From positions 113,426-177,425 of the IMG/VR virus record IMGVR_UViG_3300047496_000430: DNA of 64,000 nucleotides; one strand, given 5' to 3'. Below, in pieces: positions 30,664 through 58,600 of this stretch. Source of the DNA: a virus. Made by a program: the position numbers and the translations under genes. The notes beneath the pieces were generated by a model. The model saw only the letters and a list, made by a program, of their open reading frames with translations. It ran no database searches and was not told the DNA's origin. Numbering within the stretch: position 1 is the first letter of the stretch; each line of letters begins with the position of its first letter.

Positions 30664-31689
30664 TCAGAGCGTTCGGCGTACTGCGAAATCGATGTTGGGC
30701 TGTTGGACCGTGAATGCGTCATTTGGGCCGGCGGGGCCCGTGAGCATATTCAACGCCGTCACAGTCGGGTCGGTCGGCACGGTGATGTCGCGCGAGAGGT
30801 TGGTGCCTCCGATGGCGACACTCACGGCAGCTCCGCGCACGAGCAGCACCTCTGCGTGGCCGGTCCTATCGGTCAGGAGCTTCAGCCCTCCGCCAGCGAC
30901 GGTGAAGCCCGCGACCTGCGTACCGTTGAAGGCGTTGTAGATGTAGACCTCTTGCCCGTAGAGGGGAGCGCCGGTGACGTCGACGAGGTCGACGTAGCAG
31001 CGCACCTGGTTGGCCGGACCAACGCCCTGCACCACGCGGCCGCGGAAGGGCAGCGAGTAGTCGCTCAGCAAGCCCGAGGTGCTGTTGTAGAAGCGCCAGC
31101 GATACCAATAGGCGGGCGCCCCATTCGGGTCGACGAAGCCGTAGGTCTGTTGCGTGGGCTGGAGCACGAGGCGTCCGTCACGTCCGAAAGCGACTGACTG
31201 CGGCTCCTGCGTCGGCAAGCCGAGCAAGGGCGCCGCGTCTCCACCCACCACACGCAGCGTGACCTTCACGCCCACGGCAACAGTGCTCACGACGAGCTGC
31301 GCACCGGCCACATAGGCGACGAGTACGCCCGCGCTCTGCGCCTGTATTTGCGCCGCAGCGTCGGCAAATGTCAGCGGGTCGACGCCGGTGAACGTCACGA
31401 GGACGTCGGTCTCGCCCGGCGTTCCCTCATTGAGAAGAAGCTCGAGCGTCTTGCCTGAGAGCACGACGCTCGGCCCGGTGACGGGGGATAAAGGGGCTGC
31501 CGGTGCGTTGGGTGGCTGAACTGCCGGCATCCATGTGTTGTCAGTGAGGGCGTCGTAGGGCCCCTGCTCCGTGTCGCGCGAACGCCAGAGTTCGAGACGG
31601 TCATACGACCCAGACCAGAGCGCCGGGTCAAGAAAGAGGTCGAGCTCTATGCGTTCGTTCGTCACAAGGACGACAGGGGCCGGGTTCAT
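30664..31689 (-). CDS. Virion structural protein, beta-rich
   Basis: 341 aa, MNPAPVVLVTNERIELDLF. Contains fibronectin/Ig-like stretches (YWYRWRFYNSTSGLLSDYS, VRCYVDLVDVTGAPLYGQE) and a Pro-rich linker. The C-terminal half resembles the downstream neighbour's beta-sandwiches (GHAEVLLVRGAAVSVAIG). Likely a tail or surface protein, separated by over 10 kb from the main tail genes. Confidence 0.6.
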   Translation of the reverse strand: MNPAPVVLVTNERIELDLFLDPALWSGSYDRLELWRSRDTEQGPYDALTDNTWMPAVQPPNAPAAPLSPVTGPSVVLSGKTLELLLNEGTPGETDVLVTFTGVDPLTFADAAAQIQAQSAGVLVAYVAGAQLVVSTVAVGVKVTLRVVGGDAAPLLGLPTQEPQSVAFGRDGRLVLQPTQQTYGFVDPNGAPAYWYRWRFYNSTSGLLSDYSLPFRGRVVQGVGPANQVRCYVDLVDVTGAPLYGQEVYIYNAFNGTQVAGFTVAGGGLKLLTDRTGHAEVLLVRGAAVSVAIGGTNLSRDITVPTDPTVTALNMLTGPAGPNDAFTVQQPNIDFAVRRTL

Positions 31690-31690
31690 G

Positions 31691-32050
31691 TCACGCCCGC
31701 GCCGTCTGGGGTCCGCGGACGATGGTGCCGTCGGGGCGGACGGTATTCGGGCCGACCGGAATGCCGTACTTCGCGGAGAGCTCGACCTGGAGTGTGCGAA
31801 GCTCGGTGCTCTCTTGCGTGAACTTCTCCGTCGCCTGCTGGCGCGCGTTGTCGAGCTGCTGCATCTGCAGCTGGATATTCTGGACGCGAAGGAACTTGTT
31901 CTCCATGCGGAGACGGTCCTCTTCCGTGAGGCGCGTGGGCAGCGCCGGCACGACCTGGGCAGGCTGCGCGCTCGCGCCCTCGGCGGGAGTCGGTACGCCC
32001 TTTACTGTTTCTGTGGGGGCCTCGACAGTCATCTCTTCTTTCGGGTCCAT
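31691..32050 (-). CDS. Coiled-coil hypothetical protein
   Basis: 119 aa from the ATG at 32050 (GAGGAG 6 nt upstream). Disordered Pro/Ala-rich first 40 residues, then a long helix with heptad pattern (RMENKFLRVQNIQLQMQQLD). The C-terminus GIPVGPNTVRPDGTIVRG is a beta hairpin. It sits next to virion genes, so an assembly role is possible. Confidence 0.6.
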   Translation of the reverse strand: MDPKEEMTVEAPTETVKGVPTPAEGASAQPAQVVPALPTRLTEEDRLRMENKFLRVQNIQLQMQQLDNARQQATEKFTQESTELRTLQVELSAKYGIPVGPNTVRPDGTIVRGPQTARA

Positions 32051-32065
32051 GCTCACTCCTCGGTT

Positions 32066-32287
32066 TCAAGTGCCTACGAGAAAATCGTCAATCTCAGAGG
32101 CGACCAGGTCGGAGGTCGCAGACACAGCGGACTGTGCCAACGTCTCCGACCCGGTGCGCCCCTGGAGGATTGTCTTCGCAGACGTCACGCGGTTGTTCAA
32201 CTCGGCGGTCGCGGCCGTCGCCCAGTCCTGGGCAGCAGAAGCGAGTGCGTCAAGTCGCGCGTTGCGGTCCGCGAGTGTTCCCGCCAT
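32066..32287 (-). CDS. Small helical protein
   Basis: 73 aa, MAGTLADRNARLDALASAA, nearly entirely Ala-rich amphipathic helix, ending SEIDDFLVGT. No motif. In the same gene run as two virion proteins. Confidence 0.55.
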   Translation of the reverse strand: MAGTLADRNARLDALASAAQDWATAATAELNNRVTSAKTILQGRTGSETLAQSAVSATSDLVASEIDDFLVGT

Positions 32288-32320
32288 GGCGGCGGAGTCT
32301 ACATCAGTCTCTGGCCGTTA

Positions 32321-32515
32321 CTAGCGGCGGAGTGCACTGGGCGGAAAACCGCCTTTCTTCAGCCACTCTTCGAGGCCCCCTACCGCCTGCACGAGCTCCA
32401 AGACCTCGTCGGCGTCGGCGGTGATGGGGTTGCTGAGCGGGTCGCCGCGGTCGAGGTCGTCCCTCAACTTCTTCGCCCGTTCACAGATTTGTCTCCACGC
32501 TTCGTCAGGGTCCAT
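32321..32515 (-). CDS. Small hypothetical protein
   Basis: 64 aa from the ATG at 32515 (MDPDEAWRQICERAKKL), chosen over the longer shadow extension. Charged helices ending EEWLKKGGFPPSALRR. Overlaps the upstream gene by 11 nt. Confidence 0.5.
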   Translation of the reverse strand: MDPDEAWRQICERAKKLRDDLDRGDPLSNPITADADEVLELVQAVGGLEEWLKKGGFPPSALRR

Positions 32516-32903
32516 CTGGTACAGCTCCCTGCTGCAGCGGCGCGCGCTTCTTCTCCGCAGCAAGCTCCGCCGCACTGAGGAATGCATCGAGCAACTGAGG
32601 GTTGCCATGGAACGTGGTCGCGAAGATGCAGCCGAACTTCTCACCCAGGTACGCGGCTTGATAGTCCGCGATGGGGAGAGAGCCGCCGACGTGGATGTTG
32701 GTCTGCGCGAAGTCGATGCCCGCGTTGAGCGCGTCTTGCGCAATCTTGATGTACTCGTTCATAAAGCCCGTGAGCTCGATGAACGGATGTGCGCCGATGG
32801 AGACGGCCTGCGCGTAGAAGCTCGAGCTGAGGTTGCTCATTCGCGAGAGCATGAGCTTCAGCTCGGCACGGCGTTCTTCGGTGAGCTCTTCACGCGGGGA
32901 CAT
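32505..32903 (-). CDS. Hypothetical protein
   Basis: 132 aa from the ATG at 32903 (MSPREELTEERRAELK). Helical N-terminus, then NIHVGGSLPIADYQAAYLG and IFATTFHGNPQLLDAFLSA. Overlaps the upstream gene by 14 nt. No family recognised. Confidence 0.6.
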   Translation of the reverse strand: MSPREELTEERRAELKLMLSRMSNLSSSFYAQAVSIGAHPFIELTGFMNEYIKIAQDALNAGIDFAQTNIHVGGSLPIADYQAAYLGEKFGCIFATTFHGNPQLLDAFLSAAELAAEKKRAPLQQGAVPDGP

Positions 32904-33282
32904 CGGTACCTCGTGGAAGCCCGAAGCGGTCCCAGACCTCGTCGGGGAGGAAGGCGACGCGCTTCTTGAGGATGTCATCGCGCAGCTCGACCGACGACAC
33001 CGCGCGCTCGATGAGCGCGTCCTTGACGACGACCCACCCACCACTGCGCCAGGGGTTCTTCATGTCATCAGTCTTCTTCTCGTCGACCGAGATGAGGATG
33101 ATGCCCTGCTGCATGTAGCCCTTGCACGTGTCGCAGGGCTCGTAGTTGATGACCACGGCACGTGGTGCCTCGGCGTCGTCGCGCAGCCGGCCAAAGAGGA
33201 TGACCCCCTTGTCGCCGTTGCAGAAGAAGCACTTCTCGATGGACGAGTTCACACCGTGCTTCGGGGACAGGTACAGCCCCAT
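32890..33282 (-). CDS. Zinc-binding hypothetical protein
   Basis: 130 aa from the ATG at 33282. CFFCNGDKGVILFG and, 30 residues on, YEPCDTCKGYMQQGIILI form a treble-clef-like pair of knuckles seen in several small phage proteins. The C-terminus (LRDDILKKRVAFLPDEVW) is helical. Function unknown. Confidence 0.65.
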   Translation of the reverse strand: MGLYLSPKHGVNSSIEKCFFCNGDKGVILFGRLRDDAEAPRAVVINYEPCDTCKGYMQQGIILISVDEKKTDDMKNPWRSGGWVVVKDALIERAVSSVELRDDILKKRVAFLPDEVWDRFGLPRGTDVPA

Positions 33283-37029: not shown

Positions 37030-37521
37030 TCACGCGCCTTTGCGCAGCTCTGTACGTGCTTCGGTGATGGCCTGCCCGAGCAGGTTCTGGCCTAACCAAG
37101 TCGCTTTATTCCAAGCGCGCGGGTCGGCCAGCGAGAGACCGATACCCCAGATTTTGTCGTGTGGACTGGCCTCAACGAAGATGTCGGTGTCAGCTGTTGC
37201 CAGCAGAAACTCTCTGAGTTTCGGATTCTGCCTGTACTTCTCCATCGTCCCTGCGAGCACAATGGGGTAGCGCGTCTCTGCCCACTTCGCGTCGTCGTAG
37301 TTGCGGACCTTGCGGCCGAACTCCTTCTGCGCTCTTGGATACGGGGACGCCAGAATCTTCGCCCGCACTTCCTCGTCGCCGAACGTTCGGGCCTTCTCTG
37401 CCATCATCCACTGCTCGACGCAGTTGTATTGCTGCCCGTTGAGGAGAAAGACCGAGGGCTCCCAGTTCGACGGCCAGCCGCCCCAGAAGAGTATGAATCC
37501 GTTTCGAGTCACGATGTCCAT
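37030..37521 (-). CDS. NADAR-family ADP-ribose N-glycosidase
   Basis: 163 aa, a full-length NADAR (DUF1768/YbiA-like) domain from the ATG at 37521. Diagnostic stretches: ILFWGGWPSNWEPS (10-23), YNCVEQWMMAEKA (32-44) with the conserved Glu36, GRKVRNYDDAKW (69-80), VEASPHDKIWGIGL (116-129), DPRAW and WLGQNLLGQA (142-151). Family members cleave the N-glycosidic bond of ADP-ribose conjugates and can reverse guanine ADP-ribosylation made by DarT-type toxins. It has its own promoter (37536-37566) and terminator and lies directly downstream of an ADP-ribosyltransferase, pointing to ADP-ribose turnover or counter-defence. Confidence 0.88.
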   Translation of the reverse strand: MDIVTRNGFILFWGGWPSNWEPSVFLLNGQQYNCVEQWMMAEKARTFGDEEVRAKILASPYPRAQKEFGRKVRNYDDAKWAETRYPIVLAGTMEKYRQNPKLREFLLATADTDIFVEASPHDKIWGIGLSLADPRAWNKATWLGQNLLGQAITEARTELRKGA

Positions 37522-37535
37522 GGTGTACCTCCATG

Positions 37536-37566
37536 GTTCTTGTGCCCGAACAGCGCTACTTCTTGA
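37536..37566 (-). promoter_or_regulatory. Phage-type promoter, shared motif
   Basis: Minus-strand TCAAGA with GGCACAAGAAC starting 20 nt from its first base. It overlaps the last codons of the ADP-ribosyltransferase gene and drives the NADAR gene. Confidence 0.7.
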
Positions 37567-38215
37567 CGCGCACAACCTCGACATTCACCGACGGTGCTGA
37601 GATGAGGTACTCGCCCTCGGTGGGGCGGAAGGACTTGCCGATGACGTGTGCGTAGAGCTCGTTGAACCACGGCTTGGTACGCTCTGGCGGCGCGAGCACC
37701 GGAGTGACGCCCTCGCCATCGACGAGCTTGATGATGAGCCCGACCTTGCCATCACCGGCACCAGAGAAGCGGTTCGTCGCCGCCTCTGAGGTAGACCACG
37801 AAGAGAACCCATGATTGCGCGTGACCGGAAGAGCTAGGCGCTGTCCGACCTGGAGTTTGGCGAGTGGGTCGTCCTTCGGCACCTTGAAGCCGCGATAGAT
37901 GCCCACAACATCCGAGGGCGCAAGGTCCATCACCTTGCTGAGAGAGTCGCGGTGCTCGAGGAGCTTGCGCGCCATCGTTTGGCCTGTGTACCAGCGCCGT
38001 GCACTGTGCAGTGTCTCGAAGAGCTTCTCAGGTGTCGTCTCGCTCATGTGTGCGATGGCGGCATCACGGTGCGGACTCTCCCAGTTGTGTATCGAGGACA
38101 CGAAGCTCTCGATGTGCGCCTTCGTTCGCGGCGGCATCCGGTCGTTGCTCTTGATTTTCACCGCAGCAATCTTCTCGAGCTCATCGAGGAAGGCGCCCCA
38201 TCGTGTCCGGTCCAT
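37556..38215 (-). CDS. Putative ADP-ribosyltransferase with virion-type tag
   Basis: 219 aa. Residues 8-17 are AFLDELEKIA, a tag shared with proteins of the virion cassette at 47-50 kb. The catalytic part follows the R-S-E layout of ADP-ribosyltransferases: Arg108 in GIYRGFKVP, the STS motif at 141-143 in GFSSWSTSEAATNRF, and the E-x-E motif at 200-202 in TEGEYLISAP, the form typical of Arg-specific enzymes. It would move ADP-ribose from NAD+ to a protein. T4 Alt, also an ART, is packaged and injected with the DNA; the shared tag makes the same plausible here. Confidence 0.7.
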   Translation of the reverse strand: MDRTRWGAFLDELEKIAAVKIKSNDRMPPRTKAHIESFVSSIHNWESPHRDAAIAHMSETTPEKLFETLHSARRWYTGQTMARKLLEHRDSLSKVMDLAPSDVVGIYRGFKVPKDDPLAKLQVGQRLALPVTRNHGFSSWSTSEAATNRFSGAGDGKVGLIIKLVDGEGVTPVLAPPERTKPWFNELYAHVIGKSFRPTEGEYLISAPSVNVEVVRVKK

Positions 38216-45510: not shown

Positions 45511-45541
45511 TCTCTTATACCCCTGCGCGTGAACTACTTGT
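45511..45541 (-). promoter_or_regulatory. Phage-type promoter, shared motif (weaker)
   Basis: Minus-strand ACAAGT with GGTATAAGAGA starting 20 nt from its first base. It overlaps the 3' end of the virion gene 45534-47051. Confidence 0.6.
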
Positions 45542-47051
45542 TGCCGCCGGGGCTCGAAGCACCGAGGTCGACTGGCGTCGTCCCTCCAATGGAGCCCTTG
45601 AAGGCGCCGGCGATGCCGCTTCCGAATCCAGCGCCCTTTGGCTTTGCGATGTTGGCGATACTCGGACCTTGCGGAGTCGGAAGGCTCATGCCGGGCAGGC
45701 CGACCTTCTTCGCAGCGCCCATGGCGGCCATCGGCGAGGTGCCGGCGCCCATCATCGCTGCGTTCTTCTCGAGGAGGTACGCAACGTACTCGCTGAGCTC
45801 TGACGGTGACATCGCGTACTTCGACTTCTTGAAGTCGCTCGCGCTGAAGGTGACACCGTCGGGCAGCGCATCGGCCGACTTGTCCTTCGCACGCCCGCCG
45901 TCGATGTTCACGTCGGGGAGCAGCTCACTGCGCTTCTGGATGGCCTGGTCGAGGCGCGGCATCTGGAAGGATGGCAGGTCGCTCGCCATCATGAAGTTCC
46001 CGCGCGTGGGTGCACTCGCCGCGGTCTTCTTTGCCTCGAGCTCCGCGCGGAGTGCCGGCGCGTGCTTGAGCGCGATGTACCGCTCCAACATCCCCTTGCC
46101 GTAGCTGCCTGCCATCACACCGGCCGCAGACAGACCTGCGTGCTCTGCGAGTTCCGGCCCACCCAGGGCGTGCGTGATGAGCGGAGCGATGGCATCTCCG
46201 ATAATGTTCCTTCGTCCAAGAGCACCAGACGACCGTCCTGCGTCACGAAGAAGCTCTTCCTTCTCTTCCTCCGGTACGTCTTCGAGCCGAAGCATGTCGC
46301 TGCCGCGTAGCATCCCTTCGCCCATCAACGCGCCGAGCCCGAGACCCGCCAAGCCGCCGGCCACCGCGCCTCGGTTGCCGCCGCGAAGGTGGCCAAGGTT
46401 CATGCCGCTGACCGCCATCGGCGCACCCATGCCGAGGTACGCGCCGAGACGTCCCTTCCAGCGCGAAGGCGCCTCGTTCGGGTCCGCCTTCGATTTTCCG
46501 AAGAGCATGTGTGCACCGAGACCGGCAGCAACAGCGCCTCCTCCGACGTTTGCGGGCGTTCGCAGAGAAGCAGGTGGCGGTCTGTTCTCCCACGCGGGGG
46601 TAGGGTTCCACGCCGCATTGCCCCCCGGCCGTGCCGCCGCAGAGCCTCGTGCCGCATCACTCGCACGGCGAGCACCGCGACCGAGGTTGTGACCTTCCGG
46701 ATACTTCGCTTTCGCCACACTATTGAACTTCTTCTGCACTCCTTCGGGGATGGCAGCTTCGTTCATCATGCGCTGGAAGTCTGCGTGCGTGCCGCCTTTC
46801 GCGAGGTGCGGTCCACCGACCTGTTCCCACCACTGTCCGATGTTGGTGGTGGCGTACTTTGAGAGGAACTCCGCGCCATCGAAGTACTCGCGGAGGTCGG
46901 CGTACCAGACGGGCTCTTCAGCGGCGGTCTTCTGGAGAGGCGCCTCGAGACCTGGAATGCGCAAGGGCGGCAGCCGACTCGCACCGCTGGCGATGATGGG
47001 GTTCAACGGTGTCGAGTACTGACTCGTCGCGAACGACTGCTTCTCGGTCAT
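45534..47051 (-). CDS. Gly/Ala-rich virion-cassette protein
   Basis: 505 aa, MTEKQSFATSQYSTPLN. The first 110 residues carry an aromatic domain (WYADLREYFDGAEFLSKYA, NIGQWWEQVGG). After a Pro/Arg linker come three glycine-zipper segments (VGGGAVAAGLGAHMLFG, LGAYLGMGAPMAVSG, VAGGLAGLGLGALMGEG). The C-terminal part is polar, with LSEYVAYLLEKNAAMMG. Weak relatives of the tag occur (LQKTAAEEP, LEAKKTAAS). Its place after the hub genes suggests an internal or ejected virion protein. Confidence 0.6.
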   Translation of the reverse strand: MTEKQSFATSQYSTPLNPIIASGASRLPPLRIPGLEAPLQKTAAEEPVWYADLREYFDGAEFLSKYATTNIGQWWEQVGGPHLAKGGTHADFQRMMNEAAIPEGVQKKFNSVAKAKYPEGHNLGRGARRASDAARGSAAARPGGNAAWNPTPAWENRPPPASLRTPANVGGGAVAAGLGAHMLFGKSKADPNEAPSRWKGRLGAYLGMGAPMAVSGMNLGHLRGGNRGAVAGGLAGLGLGALMGEGMLRGSDMLRLEDVPEEEKEELLRDAGRSSGALGRRNIIGDAIAPLITHALGGPELAEHAGLSAAGVMAGSYGKGMLERYIALKHAPALRAELEAKKTAASAPTRGNFMMASDLPSFQMPRLDQAIQKRSELLPDVNIDGGRAKDKSADALPDGVTFSASDFKKSKYAMSPSELSEYVAYLLEKNAAMMGAGTSPMAAMGAAKKVGLPGMSLPTPQGPSIANIAKPKGAGFGSGIAGAFKGSIGGTTPVDLGASSPGGNK

Positions 47052-47058
47052 TTGAACC

Positions 47059-47460
47059 TCAACGCGGCAGCGCCGGTGCGGGGACAGTCGCCTTCTCGAG
47101 GACCGCGCTGTTCACCGCCTTGGGTGCGGTGCGGAGGATGTGCTGCGCTGCCTCGTTCTCGGCGTCGTGTGCAGCGATGCCCGCGAGCGGCTTCAGCCCG
47201 GCGGTGAGACCCTTCGGCGCTGCGCGAACAGCACCGAGCAGCTTCTGGTAGCCACCGAGCGCGCCGGGCGGCGGGGGCATGAACGATGCCCCAATCTTCT
47301 CGAGCTCGTCGAGGAACGCCGCGAGGCGCACCTGTGCGGTCTTGTCGAAGCCGAACGAGCCGGCGAGGAGCTTTGCCATCTCCTCCATCCGTGTCGTACG
47401 TCCCGTGAGCTGCCCGTTGGTGTCGTAGTGCGCGGTGAACCCGGACCCCGTCTTGTCCAT
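47059..47460 (-). CDS. Virion-cassette protein with AFLDELEKI tag
   Basis: 133 aa, MDKTGSGFTAHYDTNGQL. The tag AFLDELEKIGAS lies internally at about residues 48-59, after FDKTAQVRLA. The rest is Ala/Gly/Pro-rich (PPPPGALGGYQKLLGAV, AGLKPLAGIAAHDAENEAA). Function unknown; placed with other tagged proteins. Confidence 0.6.
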   Translation of the reverse strand: MDKTGSGFTAHYDTNGQLTGRTTRMEEMAKLLAGSFGFDKTAQVRLAAFLDELEKIGASFMPPPPGALGGYQKLLGAVRAAPKGLTAGLKPLAGIAAHDAENEAAQHILRTAPKAVNSAVLEKATVPAPALPR

Positions 47461-47468
47461 AGCGCCGC

Positions 47469-48476
47469 TCAGGCCGTCGCCCCGACGCCGACAGGAGGAG
47501 CTCCCCTGGCACGGAAGCGGTCGAGGAAGGAGCGTGCAGCGCCACCAGCCTGGCTGCCGAGAGCGCGCGCACCCTCAGCGGCACTCCCCGCCATGCCCTT
47601 GAGCGGGTTCATCTGCCCGACCTGCGCGCCGAGCGAGTGCATGGGCACGCCTTCGGGGCTCATGCCGCCGCGCGCGAACTGTCCGACGGCCTGACCTGCA
47701 CGACCGACAGCACCGCTGACGGCCTGTCCTGCCTGACCTGCCTGCCCCGCGAGGCTCGAGCCGAGACCGCGAAACGGGTTCATCTGCGCGAGCTGTTCGC
47801 CGACGCCGTGCATCGGGATGCCCTCCGGGCTCATTCCACCGCGGAGCGCACCGGAGATGCGGCCTCCAACGGCGCGCGCGGCGTCACCCACGGCACCAAC
47901 CGCCTTCTGTGCACCGCCGGCGACAGCCGCACCCGCTTGGCCTGCCTGCCCCGCGAGGCTCGAGCCGAGACCGCGAAACGGGTTCATCACGCTCAGACCG
48001 TGCATCGGAATGCCCTCGGCCGACATGCCCCCGCTGACGAGTCCCTTCGCTGCGCCCGCCGCGCGCCGGAAGAGGTCCATCGGACCGGCTTCCTTGGTGA
48101 GCAATGCCTCGACGGACGCGTGCCCCTCTGCTGCCGCAATCTTGCGGAGCTCGGCCTCAAAACCGTCGAAGAAGGCGCCCTTTTCGTCCGACCCGAACTT
48201 GCCGAGCGCCTTTGTCGCTGCAGCGCGGAGACCACCGAAGATGCCGGACTCTGCCGCCGGCGCTGCCTTCACCCCGAAGGACGCTGCGTTCGCCGCAGGA
48301 CTGAAGCCCGCCTTGCGCGCGGCCGCAGCACCCGCTGCCGGAGCGGCCGTCCCACGCTGCGCGAGGCGCTGTGCCTCCGGCACGGCCAGGTCGTAGCTGA
48401 GCTTCATCAGCTCAATGAACGGTTGCTGAAACGGGCGGAGTGTCTCGGGCGTGAAGTCGAGCGCGAGGGCGTTCAT
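47469..48476 (-). CDS. Virion-cassette protein with three internal repeats
   Basis: 335 aa, MNALALDFTPETLRPFQQ. A divergent tag FFDGFEAELRKIAAAEG sits at about residues 101-117. From about 150 on there are three repeats opening GGMSAEGIPMHG, GGMSPEGIPMHG and GGMSPEGVPMHS, each leading to MNPFRGLGSSLAGQAGQAG-like glycine-zipper sequence. Such Gly/Ala helices suit membrane insertion or tight packing. Possibly an ejected or internal virion protein. Confidence 0.6.
   Translation of the reverse strand: MNALALDFTPETLRPFQQPFIELMKLSYDLAVPEAQRLAQRGTAAPAAGAAAARKAGFSPAANAASFGVKAAPAAESGIFGGLRAAATKALGKFGSDEKGAFFDGFEAELRKIAAAEGHASVEALLTKEAGPMDLFRRAAGAAKGLVSGGMSAEGIPMHGLSVMNPFRGLGSSLAGQAGQAGAAVAGGAQKAVGAVGDAARAVGGRISGALRGGMSPEGIPMHGVGEQLAQMNPFRGLGSSLAGQAGQAGQAVSGAVGRAGQAVGQFARGGMSPEGVPMHSLGAQVGQMNPLKGMAGSAAEGARALGSQAGGAARSFLDRFRARGAPPVGVGATA
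47735..47990. repeat. Near-identical direct repeats inside the 335-aa gene
   Basis: The stretch beginning CCTGCCTGCCCCGCGAGGCT occurs near 47737 and again near 47940, identical for about 45 bp and lying 200 bp apart. It encodes the NPFRGLGSSLAGQAGQA parts of two protein repeats. Confidence 0.75.
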
Positions 48477-48491
48477 GGTCTCTCCTTGGGA

Positions 48492-48863
48492 CTACTGTTC
48501 TACACCAGCCGGGCCCACCGCCGAAGGCAGAGGAAGAGGCTTGTTCTTTTCGGCGTACTGGTCAGCGAGCGCACGCACCACTGGGATGGCGCCGCCGGCG
48601 AGGCCACCCTTGACGGCGTCACCCGCGACATTGCGAATCTGCTGGAGTGCGGTGCCACCACCGAATATCGGGCGTCCGGCGACGACGTTGCCGATGGTGG
48701 TGATGGCAGGTCCTGCGACCGCGCCGACAGCACCGTAGCGCGCGAGCTGGTTGGTCAGCAGCTCCCGCTTCGCCGCGTCGAGCTTCTGCTTCACGGCGTC
48801 CGCGTGCCGCTCCGTAGCAGCACCGAGCTTCACCAGCTCATCGAGAAAGGCCGCGGTGTCCAT
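48492..48863 (-). CDS. Tagged glycine-zipper protein
   Basis: 123 aa from the ATG at 48863 (TGATG overlap). The tag is at the very N-terminus: MDTAAFLDELVKLGAATE. Helix with heptads, then Gly/Ala segments (YGAVGAVAGPAITTIGNVVA, GGLAGGAIPVVRALA). Likely membrane-active or packed in the virion. Unknown family. Confidence 0.6.
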   Translation of the reverse strand: MDTAAFLDELVKLGAATERHADAVKQKLDAAKRELLTNQLARYGAVGAVAGPAITTIGNVVAGRPIFGGGTALQQIRNVAGDAVKGGLAGGAIPVVRALADQYAEKNKPLPLPSAVGPAGVEQ

Positions 48864-49321
48864 CACGTCTTCCGCTTCTTCAGTGCGTGCTCGACGCCGA
48901 GCTGTGCAAGAGAACCGACGCCGTAGCCGAGGCCCGAGCTGGCGAGCTCGCTGGCTCCAAGGGCGTGCCCGACTCCGGCCCCGGCGAGGGCGCCCAGCGC
49001 CGGGCCAACTTCGTGACTGGCGCCTTCGAGGAAACGACGAGCAAAGCTCGGTGCCTCGCCCGCAAGCGCTTCTTTCTTCTGCATCCCTGGGTACTTCTTC
49101 GCGACCGCTGCGCGCACGCGCGATTGCTCCTCCGACGAGCCGTGCATCTTAGAGAAGCCCAACGCGCTCTCGGCGTGCTGCTTGTCCTCGATGGGGTACT
49201 TGCGCTCTTCCGGGATGGCGAAGTTCTTCTCCTTGATGTGCGCGCGGGCAGACGACGTGAGGTCCGCGGCAATCTTGGTGAGCTCGTCTTCGAAGGCGGC
49301 TTGAAGCGTGTGAAGGTCCAT
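48863..49321 (-). CDS. Tagged protein with DUF6582-like segment
   Basis: 152 aa from the ATG at 49321. Tag: MDLHTLQAAFEDELTKIAAD. Next, LTSSARAHIKEKNFAIPEER, KYPIEDKQHAESAL, then VRAAVAKKYPGM: the pattern F-A-x-P-E-x-R-x-Y-P-I-x-D-x-x-H-A, seen in many phage head-associated or putative capsid proteins. The C-terminal 60 residues are a glycine zipper (ALGALAGAGVGHALGA). Probably a virion component. Confidence 0.6.
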   Translation of the reverse strand: MDLHTLQAAFEDELTKIAADLTSSARAHIKEKNFAIPEERKYPIEDKQHAESALGFSKMHGSSEEQSRVRAAVAKKYPGMQKKEALAGEAPSFARRFLEGASHEVGPALGALAGAGVGHALGASELASSGLGYGVGSLAQLGVEHALKKRKT

Positions 49322-49328
49322 AACGTCC

Positions 49329-49835
49329 TCAAGTATGTTCCGATGGGGAGTTGAACGCGCCGATACCGGTCGACTGCTGCGCAAGTCCGGTGATGGTCGT
49401 GGCATTGTTGCGTTGGTCGTAGCTGTCGACGACGTTGATGTTCTCCTGGCTGGGAACATCACCCTTCTTCTTCGGCTTGATGGCCTCCTGGTACGCGAAC
49501 GGGCTCTCGCCCAGCGTCATCGGGTGCGTCTCGCCACGAACCACCTCACCAATCTTCGACTGGTCGGGGTAGTTGGTCTCCTTCGAAGGGACCTCGCCGG
49601 GTCGCTTTGGAATGCGGGCAGCACCCGGGTCGTCAGTGCCAGCGCTCGCCACGGGCTCCGCGCGCCCTGCAGCATCCGCCTTCTTATAGAGCGTGCCGTC
49701 CTTGTCCTTCTTCAGGAGCGTGTGAACGCTCATCGGACGGCGGCCCTCGCGCGTCTTCGGCACGTGCATACGCCCGTGCGCGGCGGAAATCTTCTCGAGC
49801 TCATCGAGAAACGCAGCGTAGACGGGCGAAGGCAT
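49329..49835 (-). CDS. Tagged polar protein of the virion cassette
   Basis: 168 aa, MPSPVYAAFLDELEKISAAH with the exact tag at residues 8-16. The rest is polar and low in hydrophobics (KTREGRRPMSVHTLLKKDKD, YPDQSKIGEVVRGETHP), ending TGLAQQSTGIGAFNSPSEHT; largely disordered. Immediately downstream of an HNH gene. Confidence 0.6.
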   Translation of the reverse strand: MPSPVYAAFLDELEKISAAHGRMHVPKTREGRRPMSVHTLLKKDKDGTLYKKADAAGRAEPVASAGTDDPGAARIPKRPGEVPSKETNYPDQSKIGEVVRGETHPMTLGESPFAYQEAIKPKKKGDVPSQENINVVDSYDQRNNATTITGLAQQSTGIGAFNSPSEHT

Positions 49836-49863: not shown

Positions 49864-50670
49864 TTACGAAGCCTGTAGGCGCGGCAGACGCGGCCCTCCG
49901 CGGACGTCGTGCGCAGTAGCTGTCATGGCCTTCTCCAGCGGCCAGAACGCAAGTCGATAGCGCAGAACACCGAAAGGAACACGCAGCCTGCGTGCCCACT
50001 CCGCGAGGGGCAATGTCTCGCCTGCGTACGACACAAGACGCCGGCTGGCTGGTGTCAGAAGTGCTTGCTCCAGCGGCCATCCTTTCTCCAGACGAGAACT
50101 CAACGTTTCGGCATCCAATCCCGCGCAGCGCGCCCACTCGGCAAGACACTGCGTCGTTCCGGCGTATGAGAGCATAACGTTGTTACGTTTGTTCCGCGCC
50201 TGCTCCTCCTTCGTTGCCCAGCGCACGTTGCCGGGCTCGTAGTCCTTATCGTTGTCGCGGCGGTCGAGAGAGTGTTTCCCAGAAGGACGCCGCCCCACTT
50301 CCGCAAAGAACAACTCGAAGGTGCCCGCTCCTACCCATGAAGGATGCACACCGATTCCGCGTCCGCCGTAGTCTGCGTACATCTTGTTCTTCTTATTGTA
50401 GCAGCGGTCGTACATCTGCTTCCACGCGCGATACTCCGCGGTGCGCGACATGCCGTGCCGCGTGAAGAGTTTCTTTGCACGCGTGCCTACGCCCGCCCGC
50501 TGCAGACAACCACAAGAGGTAGTGTCACCCGCCTTCAACGACGCGGGGCGCACCGTGCACTCTGTGCCGCAGACGCACAAACAAACACAACGCACGGGAC
50601 GTCGTTCCATGCGCTGAACGACCAGGTTCACGAAACGACGACCTGTTAGGTCTTCAAATCGCGGCGTCAC
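49864..50670 (-). CDS. HNH homing-type endonuclease
   Basis: 268 aa. N-terminal Cys domain (CVCLCVCG...TTSCGCLQR), a central nuclease part (YRAWKQMYDRCYN...YADYGGRGIGVHPSW, then SLDRRDNDKDYEPGNVRWAT and KRNN), and two C-terminal HTH repeats (GTTQCLAEWARCAGLDAE; GETLPLAEWARRLRVP). Such free-standing nucleases cut at a defined site and spread by homing. It sits between the hub gene and the tagged cassette, overlapping the hub stop by one base. Confidence 0.85.
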   Translation of the reverse strand: MTPRFEDLTGRRFVNLVVQRMERRPVRCVCLCVCGTECTVRPASLKAGDTTSCGCLQRAGVGTRAKKLFTRHGMSRTAEYRAWKQMYDRCYNKKNKMYADYGGRGIGVHPSWVGAGTFELFFAEVGRRPSGKHSLDRRDNDKDYEPGNVRWATKEEQARNKRNNVMLSYAGTTQCLAEWARCAGLDAETLSSRLEKGWPLEQALLTPASRRLVSYAGETLPLAEWARRLRVPFGVLRYRLAFWPLEKAMTATAHDVRGGPRLPRLQAS

Positions 50671-55645: not shown

Positions 55646-58600
55646 CTACTTGCCCTCTGGGTTCTTGAACCCATTTTTCTCGATTGTCGTGAGCATGCTG
55701 TTAGTACCCTTGCCGATAGCCACCAAGTCCTCGAGGAACTTCGCCGACTTCTCGGCAGCCTTCAGCTGTGCCGCCGCCAACGGGTCGTTCGCTTCCTGTT
55801 CGCCCTGCTTCTTAGCCGTCTGTTTATCCTTGAATTCCTTCGAGCTGGTGACGTCCGAGATGATGCTTGCGGTCTTGCGCCCCTCAGACATACCTTTCTG
55901 AACAGCCGCGAGGGTCTCCTTATCGCCGACACCGCTCATCGCCAGGAGTTTCTGCATGCCCTCATAGCTGTTGACGTCGATGTTCTTGAGCTGGTCCTTC
56001 GACAGATTGAGACCGAGCGCCTCTGCCGCAGCCCCCGTCTTGCCCTTCCTGCGAGAAGATTTATCGAAGCGGTCCTCGACGCTGGCAGAGTAGCCAGCCT
56101 TAGCACCAGCTTCCGTACCTGCGAGCGCGTTCGCAACCGCACGCTTCTGTGAGACCGTCATCTTGTCGAGCAGGCGCTCTTGCTCAACGGCCTCGCCTTG
56201 CATCTTCTCGAGGATGCCGGCGTCGACTTCTGCCGTGGCGGTCGTGCCACCGAGGTTCGACTTCATCACGGAGGCTCGCAACGCGTAAGACGCAAAGCGC
56301 GCAGCGTCTTTCCCTCCAGCGGTCTCGAGGGACTTCCGCGCATCAGCTGTGAGCGTGTTGGCCTTCGCGTCGTAGATGCCAAGGTTGGTTGCGGTATCGA
56401 GCTCCTTCTTGCCCTCACCGCGCTGACGACGGGAAATCTCACTGACGTTTTTCTCCCAGTCAGTGCGCACCGTCTGCATCGACCGCGTGGCCATCGACGC
56501 GAGCTCGTCCGGTTTGAAGGTACGCCCTGGCGATGAGAGACTGGCAGCGAACTTCTCCTTGTCCTCTGCCGAGGCGTTTGGATTCTTGTCCAACCACTCG
56601 GAGTAGCTCGAAGCTGCCATGAGGCGCTGCTTGACCTGACTCTCGGGGTTGTTCTTGTCTTCATCGCTGAGACCTGCGAGCTCCTTGGAGATATCCGCGC
56701 GCGCCTGTGCCGCAACGTCCTTGTCTCCGCCGAAGGTGCGTAGCGCGAGGTCGCGAAACTTGTCCGACTTGAGGAACTCACCCGCTGCCTGCTCCGCAGC
56801 GGCACCACCACCAGACACCGAGTCGGCGAACGAGCCCACTGCCTTGGTAGCAAAGCCGAGTGTGAGGAGGTTGCCGACACCACCGACCGCAACCGCGGTA
56901 GCCTTTTCCCCGAAGCTGCGCTGGTCCCCAAGTACGGAGCGGGCAAGAGCCGTGTTCTCCTCACGCGCGGAGCGGAAGCCACGGGAGCTGGAGGTGAGCA
57001 GGTCACTCGGGATGCCGTAGTTCGAAGCGAGAGACCCCGCACCGCCGATGCCCTGCGCGCGCTCGGCGCTTGCCATGTAGCTCGCCTTCTCCGCGAGCGT
57101 CATCTTGCTGAACTTGTCGCCGGCCGCCTGGTCATGCTTCGCGAGTGCCTGGCCGAAGCTCGCGATGCGGTCATCGCCCTGCCCCGCGACGTGACCCATC
57201 GCGTACGCCTCGCTGAGCCACTTCCCCTTCTCGCCGCCGTACTCCGTGAGCACGCTCTTGTCGTAGCCGCCAGACGCGACACGACGAACCTGGTCGATGT
57301 CGGCGAACTTCGAACGAATCTGGTCGCTCGACATCCCGTTGATGTCGAAGCCCGCCTTGCGCAACTTGCTCTGCCCAGACTCACCGTGAAGGAGAAAGCG
57401 CATCATCTCGCCGGAGCCCGCCATCGCGCCGAGAACACCGCCACCTGCAGCGCCAAAGAGACCACCGCCGAGCGCACCGCCCGCAGCACCGGCCATCGCG
57501 CCCTCGCCCATGTTCGTCAGGCCCTGGCTCATGCTGCCGCCTGCACGCAGCTGCGCCGCGAGGTCCTGGTCGCCCATCTTGCCGGGAAGCGCCAGACCCT
57601 TGCCGCCGAAGCCCTTCATGCCGACGCCGAACGCGTCACGTCCAGCCTTCGCACTGAGCACACCACCGCCCATCATCTGCTGGAACTTGTCGTCGATGTC
57701 CTTCGAGTACGTCTCTGTGTAGTGGTCGAGGAGACCGTTGAAGAACTCGTCGATGCTCTGCGACCCAGCATTGAACACGTCCTGCCCGACCTTCTGGAGC
57801 TTGCTGTTGATGTGCTCCTTGGCTTGGTCGAAGCGCTGCTTCACACCTTCGAGACCGTGACTCTTCCGAGCCATCGACTGCTTCTGGAAGTACTGGTCAC
57901 GCGACGCGTCACGCCGCTGCTGTTCCAGAATCTCTGGCATCGCGCTCGCCATCTTGATGGCAGAGTCAACCTCGTCTCGTCCCATCCCGAGCTGTCGCTG
58001 CGCGAAGAGCATCGAGCGGTCGTCCATGTTGTTGATGTCGACGCCCTTCGACTCCGCCCATTCCTTGAGCTGGAGTGCGGGGAGGAAGCCGCCAAAGCGC
58101 TCCATCGCTGCACCGCGCAGACGGCCCTCGTTCCGGATGAAGTTCGCACGACCCACCTTCGCGAGGTGCGACTGGTCGTTCTTCATCGTCTCGCTGATGC
58201 TCATCCCACCGGTGAGAATCTGCTGGACTGCTCCTTCATCCAAACTTCCATCCTTGCCTGCGACAGAAGCAAGTAGGCGCCGACCGCGCCCGCTTTGAAG
58301 GAAGCCAGCAGTGTGTTGCATCGAAGAAGCGGCATAGGCCTGCCTCCCTTCCGCACCGGTGAGCCCGGTGGTGTTGTAGATGTCCTCCTCCGAAAGAAGA
58401 CCCATCTGTTGTGCCGTTCCAATCTGGCCGATGGTGCGCATGCCGGCCATCGCGCCTTGCCGTCCGAGACCGCCCATCGAGCGTGAAATCTGAGAACCAA
58501 TGCTCGCGGCACCGGTGACTTCGCTGAGCGCGAGACCGCCGGACACCGAGGTGTTGCGCGCCATCGAGGCGAAGCCCATCGCACCGCGCGCACCGAAGAC

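Follow-up and report, generated by a model that had tools for sequence, protein, structure and literature searches.

Recurrence of a ten-residue peptide on unrelated phage proteins

Why would neighboring phage proteins that otherwise share nothing carry the same short peptide? This question is raised by the window analyzed here, a 64,000-base stretch that spans 113426-177425 in a virus record of 177,425 bases (IMGVR_UViG_3300047496_000430). An earlier note had named six instances of the peptide, in five adjacent genes and one distant gene, and proposed a docking, packaging or protease-processing signal. All six were confirmed, on the minus strand and in the genes named. They follow a ten-residue consensus, [AS]-F-x-D-E-L-x-K-[IL]-A, with a K-x-A site at its end. 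We propose that this tag is a capsid-targeting signal with a built-in release site, a reading that we consider likely (probability of roughly 0.84) and in which packaging, the docking partner, cleavage, the scissile bond and ejection are inferred.

Within the cassette, the 168-residue protein at window positions 49329..49835 carries AFLDELEKIS at 49785..49814 (residues 8-17; score 32.9 with the matrix described below). It belongs to a family with the pattern REGRRPMSVxxLLxKxKDGTLYK whose relatives are also tagged, giving a cluster of nine tagged proteins. The 152-residue protein at 48863..49321, which matches phrog_16160 and, weakly, DUF6582, carries AFEDELTKIA at 49268..49297 (residues 9-18 counted from the ATG at 49321; score 28.8). 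AFLDELVKLG is found at 48822..48851 (residues 5-14; score 25.2) in a 123-residue open reading frame at 48492..48863 that matched no family and has no known function. The 335-residue protein at 47469..48476, whose C-terminal repeats are rich in alanine and glycine, has a divergent, internal tag, GFEAELRKIA, at 48135..48164 (residues 105-114; score 16.6). The called gene at 47059..47460 encodes a 133-residue protein with AFLDELEKIG at 47290..47319 (residues 48-57; score 33.7) and a second predicted site (DKTA/Q) upstream of the tag. At a distance from the cassette, AFLDELEKIA at 38165..38194 (residues 8-17; score 33.4) lies in a 219-residue protein at 37556..38215. Four of the six tags thus fall inside the first 18 residues, as had been claimed.

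An untagged 505-residue neighbor (45534..47051, minus) contains four K-x-A[ASG] sites against 1.65 expected and is possibly a substrate of the same protease. Two other minus-strand genes nearby were also noted: a phage sigma factor candidate with sigma-70 region 3 (PF04539; 42635-43423), and a gene at 49864-50670 that by eye resembles an HNH/AP2-type homing endonuclease, without a Pfam match, and sits between the tagged cassette and a 1025-residue probable tail protein.

No confirmation was obtained for the earlier label of ADP-ribosyltransferase on the 37556 protein. Nothing was found in Pfam and nothing meaningful in a sequence search of the PDB, and a single-sequence AlphaFold model (pLDDT 40) was too poor to judge the fold. 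Directly downstream, a minus-strand gene at window 37030-37521 encodes a NADAR-domain protein (PF08719, E 9e-44), so that an ADP-ribose-related pair remains a possibility.

A search of the whole record, for which a simple codon model predicted 235 genes (a few start positions may be wrong), returned ten tagged genes, all on the minus strand. The window accounts for genome positions 150981 (the 37556 gene) and 160484, 160894, 161917, 162288 and 162754 (the cassette). Four more lie beyond it, at 56356, 78793, 79197 and 85953, the last with its tag at the C-terminus. None of the plus-strand genes of this genome is tagged.

Recurrence of this kind is not expected from composition. Among the 235 called genes the strict motif occurs nine times, whereas 300 shuffles gave no instance; the loose motif occurs ten times, against a shuffle mean of 0.55. 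With a scoring matrix trained only on tags from other phages, 12 scores above 10 were obtained in this genome, corresponding to the ten tagged genes, the scaffold candidate described below and one weak match (the 145930 gene). Reversed proteins gave none above 10 and a maximum of 8.4, about half the score of the weakest window tag, that of the 47469 gene. A chance origin of the tag in this genome is excluded. Its codons differ synonymously between instances (GCC/GCG, TTC/TTT, GAT/GAC, CTC/CTG), which indicates that conservation is at the protein level.

Unrelated carriers and their predicted functions

The statement that the remainder of each tagged protein is unrelated also held, since masking the tags leaves the ten proteins of this genome without similarity to one another. 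The same is seen on a larger scale: 117 tagged proteins, similarly masked, fall into 68 unrelated sequence clusters, 55 of them singletons. The tag usually begins 2-14 residues past a start, and tandem clusters of tagged genes are frequent (for instance at loci L016, L198 and L203).

Several tagged proteins can be named. An SNF2-type helicase, which matches phrog_62, is tagged in this phage and in at least five relatives; other tagged enzymes are a type I inorganic pyrophosphatase (InPase), a NUDIX hydrolase, a C92 papain-like amidase, a GNAT acetyltransferase with a glyoxalase-like domain and, by weak assignment, a zinc peptidase. These are the kinds of enzyme expected of injected cargo, although injection itself is inferred. 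The InPase domain has been predicted independently, on other grounds, to be packaged in virions and injected (PMC5512222).

The arrangement of cargo genes in relatives varies. One locus (L184, 1-8101, genome G028) is a compact cargo cluster whose tagged run includes the SNF2 helicase, the C92 amidase and the REGRRP family. Helicase and pyrophosphatase are joined in a single open reading frame in L210, L211 and L212 (genomes G051, G037 and G050), and in the G037 polyprotein the tag lies between the two domains. In two further relatives an InPase domain is found inside the prohead-protease reading frame itself, which is 935-1341 residues long (L235, G007:C1:189138-192791; L237, G008:C1:149297-151708); such an arrangement would bring the enzyme into the head with no need of a tag. 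An intein reading of the large protease reading frames in relatives was rejected; at least these two (G007 and G008) contain the InPase domain.

A probable prohead protease and its predicted K-x-A site

If the tag is processed, a head protease with a matching specificity is expected. The search for one, which the earlier note had proposed, yielded a candidate gene at genome positions 31269-32996, between the portal/terminase genes and the major capsid gene and adjoining the scaffold candidate. Syntenic homologues are found in Salmonella phage Arash, Vibrio phage D69 and Bacillus phage G, and the order portal/terminase, protease, scaffold, capsid is common to this genome, Arash, D69 and relatives. 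H118 and S174 (within DVSMGC) are invariant in 27 members, and their catalytic role is inferred. The best PDB fold match is T4 gp21 (5jbl), at a non-significant E of 0.56; matches to annotated viral prohead proteases are weak, and none of the library families names the protein. Based on synteny, the conserved His and Ser and the non-significant gp21 match, this gene likely encodes the prohead protease.

The predicted specificity comes from the head proteins. K-x-A[ASG] occurs 53 times in those of this phage against 10.4 expected, with a maximum of 26 in 2000 shuffles. This roughly five-fold enrichment is confined to head proteins (70 sites against 60 expected in the rest of the genome), and the five most K-x-A-enriched genes genome-wide all belong to the head cluster. 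Related patterns (K-A, K-x-x-A, A-x-K, R-x-A, E-x-A, D-x-A, Q-x-A, K-x-G and K-x-V) occur in head proteins at only 0.6 to 1.7 times expectation. The cultured phage Arash independently shows the same K-x-A enrichment in its head proteins, and the N-terminal arm of the major capsid protein contains a K-x-A in 70 of 70 aligned sequences. The enrichment is thus established, and the K-x-A that ends the tag is of the enriched type. Cleavage at K-x-A is inferred, by analogy with T4 gp21, which cuts after L/I-x-E (PMC9026906), and SPN3US gp245, which cuts after A-x-E (PMC10052503).

Resemblance of the tag to a conserved scaffold segment

The scaffold candidate is the gene that follows the protease in relatives, an assignment that rests on its position, its composition and its abundance of K-x-A (in 62 proteins, 340 sites where 87 are expected). 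Its one strongly conserved segment is EAD[FY]LGRxMAH[SA][FY]x[DQ]ELxKIA, of which the portion GRxMAH[SA][FY]x[DQ]ELxKIA aligns with the tag in register. When scaffolds were scored with the tag matrix, from which scaffold rows had been removed, in 35 of 55 no position elsewhere in the protein outscored the tag-like register. As the scaffolds are homologous, these do not represent 35 independent events. Many scaffolds retain MAH[SA][FY]..EL without K-I-A in register. The resemblance is directly observed; that the tag mimics an interaction helix of the scaffold is inferred from this resemblance only, and there are no binding data. The protease family offers a similar hint, suggestive only: an [AG][FYW]x[DEN]E helix preceded by K-x-[AS] is present in the C-terminal region of 35 of 55 proteases.

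Position of the predicted site relative to helix and cargo

If the site serves to release cargo, it is expected to lie between the helix and the protein being carried. In loci chosen by their protease only, K..[AGS] follows in register after 15 of 16 N-terminal helices. The pyrophosphatase provides a test of the opposite arrangement: its tag is N-terminal in some phages (L161/L218 and L169/L228) and C-terminal in this phage and eleven others. All 12 C-terminal tags have lost the in-register K-x-A, and all 12 have a K-x-[SA] just before the helix, as in the layout ...KLTKISSVVLAFFDELTKIEGAT-stop. These 12 proteins are homologous, hence not independent observations; an unrelated protein, in L184, shows the same mirror layout, with K-x-[SA] ahead of a C-terminal helix. 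Because the site shifts to the cargo side of a C-terminal helix, the predicted cut always parts tag from cargo. Thus, on sequence evidence, two functions are separable, the helix being retained at any location and the site relocating to lie between helix and cargo, with cleavage itself inferred.

Restriction of the tag to one phage lineage

The distribution of the tag was assessed by a DNA search of 2.9 million IMG/VR viral contigs with a pattern encoding F-[FL]-D-E-L-E-K-I-A. This returned 29 stretches in 27 records, and neither a scrambled peptide of the same composition nor the reversed pattern gave a match. The protease family of this phage is encoded in 21 of the 27 records. Of the other six, four have the portal and one the capsid protein, so that 26 of 27 carry a lineage protease, portal or capsid protein; the exception (G013) shows none. 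In the reverse test a looser tag pattern gave 64 matches in 42 lineage records and no control matches, and of 29 records selected solely for their protease, 16 carry the tag. These searches place the tag, with that one exception, within a single phage lineage.

A tblastn comparison of two of the proteases with phage records brought up no tagged phage in culture; its matches were limited to Arash, three Vibrio phages and phage G. As no tagged phage among the records searched has been cultured, particle evidence such as a virion mass spectrum or an N-terminal sequence is lacking. The F-x-DEL-x-K tag is absent from the three genomes checked, those of Arash, D69 and G; these have the protease without the tag, which is therefore not essential to that protease. 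Bacterial and archaeal genomes, when searched for the protease, yielded no more than a pair of metagenome contigs, of which one had been binned as a Deltaproteobacterium. In the open-access literature searched, a scope that leaves out most subscription journals, we came across neither the peptide nor any account of a tag of this kind.

Proposed mechanism and alternative explanations

The original suggestion of docking, packaging or protease processing is supported, and docking combined with processing fits the data, with the presence of tagged proteins in particles inferred. In the mechanism that we propose, the tag's amphipathic helix, [AS]-F-x-D-E-L, imitates the scaffold segment that is most conserved and would bring tagged proteins into the scaffold core during prohead assembly. 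The K-[IL]-A between helix and cargo would then be cut, presumably after the alanine, by the prohead protease, for which further K-x-A cuts are predicted in the scaffold, in the protease itself and in the arm of the capsid protein. Cleavage would free the cargo inside the head, to be ejected with the DNA into the host. The protease itself may enter the core by the same imitation of the scaffold. Helix-scaffold binding, the cut and ejection are all inferred here; the tag itself, its unrelated carriers and the rule of site position rest on the sequences directly.

A simpler explanation is that the tag is only an extended prohead-protease site, F-x-DEL-x-KIA, and that some other feature targets these proteins to the head. 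In its favor, the tag does end in the K-x-A that is enriched in head proteins. However, the helix is missing at most K-x-A sites of head proteins, it is retained at C-termini where the in-register site has been lost and replaced on its other side, and many scaffolds likewise keep its counterpart without an in-register K-I-A; we consider this explanation unlikely. Docking on another part of the virion, such as the portal, tail or baseplate, instead of the scaffold core is similarly improbable. Some tagged genes do adjoin either the gene for the portal or one that probably encodes a tail protein, and the docking partner is only inferred, but the tag and the scaffold helix align in register, the site predicted for the head protease is part of the tag, and the long tail-like genes of this genome are untagged.

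The mostly N-terminal position of the tag could instead reflect a signal for localization, stability or translation in the host, with no role in the virion. This is very unlikely, since the tag is also found at C-termini and between domains, is limited to one phage lineage and is on no plus-strand gene here. The frequent tandem arrangement of tagged genes might also suggest that they are paralogous, or that the motif is a spreading DNA repeat without function; the 68 unrelated clusters that remain after masking, and the synonymous variation in tag codons, leave almost no room for this. An encapsulin cargo-loading peptide was ruled out, as the genome is that of a tailed phage with a terminase and a major head protein, and the tag is mostly N-terminal.

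We thus favor a targeting signal that carries its own release site. In a bolder form, which we consider somewhat more likely than not, scaffold mimicry underlies a modular code for loading cargo, in which the self-release K-x-A always lies between helix and cargo, any protein can be loaded from either end or from a polyprotein, and the injected proteins of the entire uncultivated lineage can be listed from DNA. Which proteins travel in the head and are injected must ordinarily be measured virion by virion. If the proposal is correct, the tag would list the injected proteins of hundreds of uncultivated phages straight from sequence, most of them of unknown function, and would point to proteins of early host takeover and counter-defense. 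It would also define a docking helix and a distinct predicted K-x-A protease specificity for loading and release in the head.

Comparison with known head-targeting systems

The earlier comparison with the capsid-targeting peptides of T4, as alike in kind and different in sequence, is supported. Like the tag, the T4 targeting sequences (internal proteins I-III and Alt) are short terminal peptides on unrelated cargo; they end in a prohead-protease site, and the tag in a predicted one. Their entry depends on the scaffold and they are removed on maturation, both of which are inferred for the tag, and Alt also has a cleaved C-terminus (PMC9026906). The peptide is different, however, and the tag ends in K-x-A rather than L/I-x-E (enrichment of L/I-x-E was not counted). 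Unlike the T4 sequences, the tag matches a conserved scaffold helix, sits at either end or between domains and is carried by dozens of proteins in a separate phage lineage.

In phage P1, the N-terminal 30 residues of DarB suffice to load this anti-restriction protein (PMC9024508). That signal resembles the tag in being an N-terminal peptide on related kinds of cargo, but the P1 Dar proteins share no consensus (PMC9024508), whereas the tag is one consensus on all cargo, coupled to a predicted cleavage site. Given a different peptide, a different predicted cleavage motif and the lack of a consensus among the P1 Dar proteins, the tag is not, on present evidence, a member of the T4 or P1 systems by descent.

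In the giant phages SPN3US and phiKZ, head proteins have propeptides in which a short P3-x-P1 cleavage motif recurs, and the protease gp245 (A-x-E) autocleaves its C-terminal propeptide (PMC10052503). The tagged lineage differs in its predicted K-x-A specificity and in having a common cargo-targeting helix. The head modules of Arash, D69 and phage G have a homologous protease and the same head gene order but no F-x-DEL-x-K tag is found in these genomes; the head proteins of Arash and D69 are rich in K-x-A, like those of the tagged lineage. Taken together, these comparisons suggest that the tag likely works as the T4 and P1 signals do, packaging and cleavage being inferred, and differs from them in sequence, in predicted cleavage specificity and in its apparent mimicry of the scaffold.
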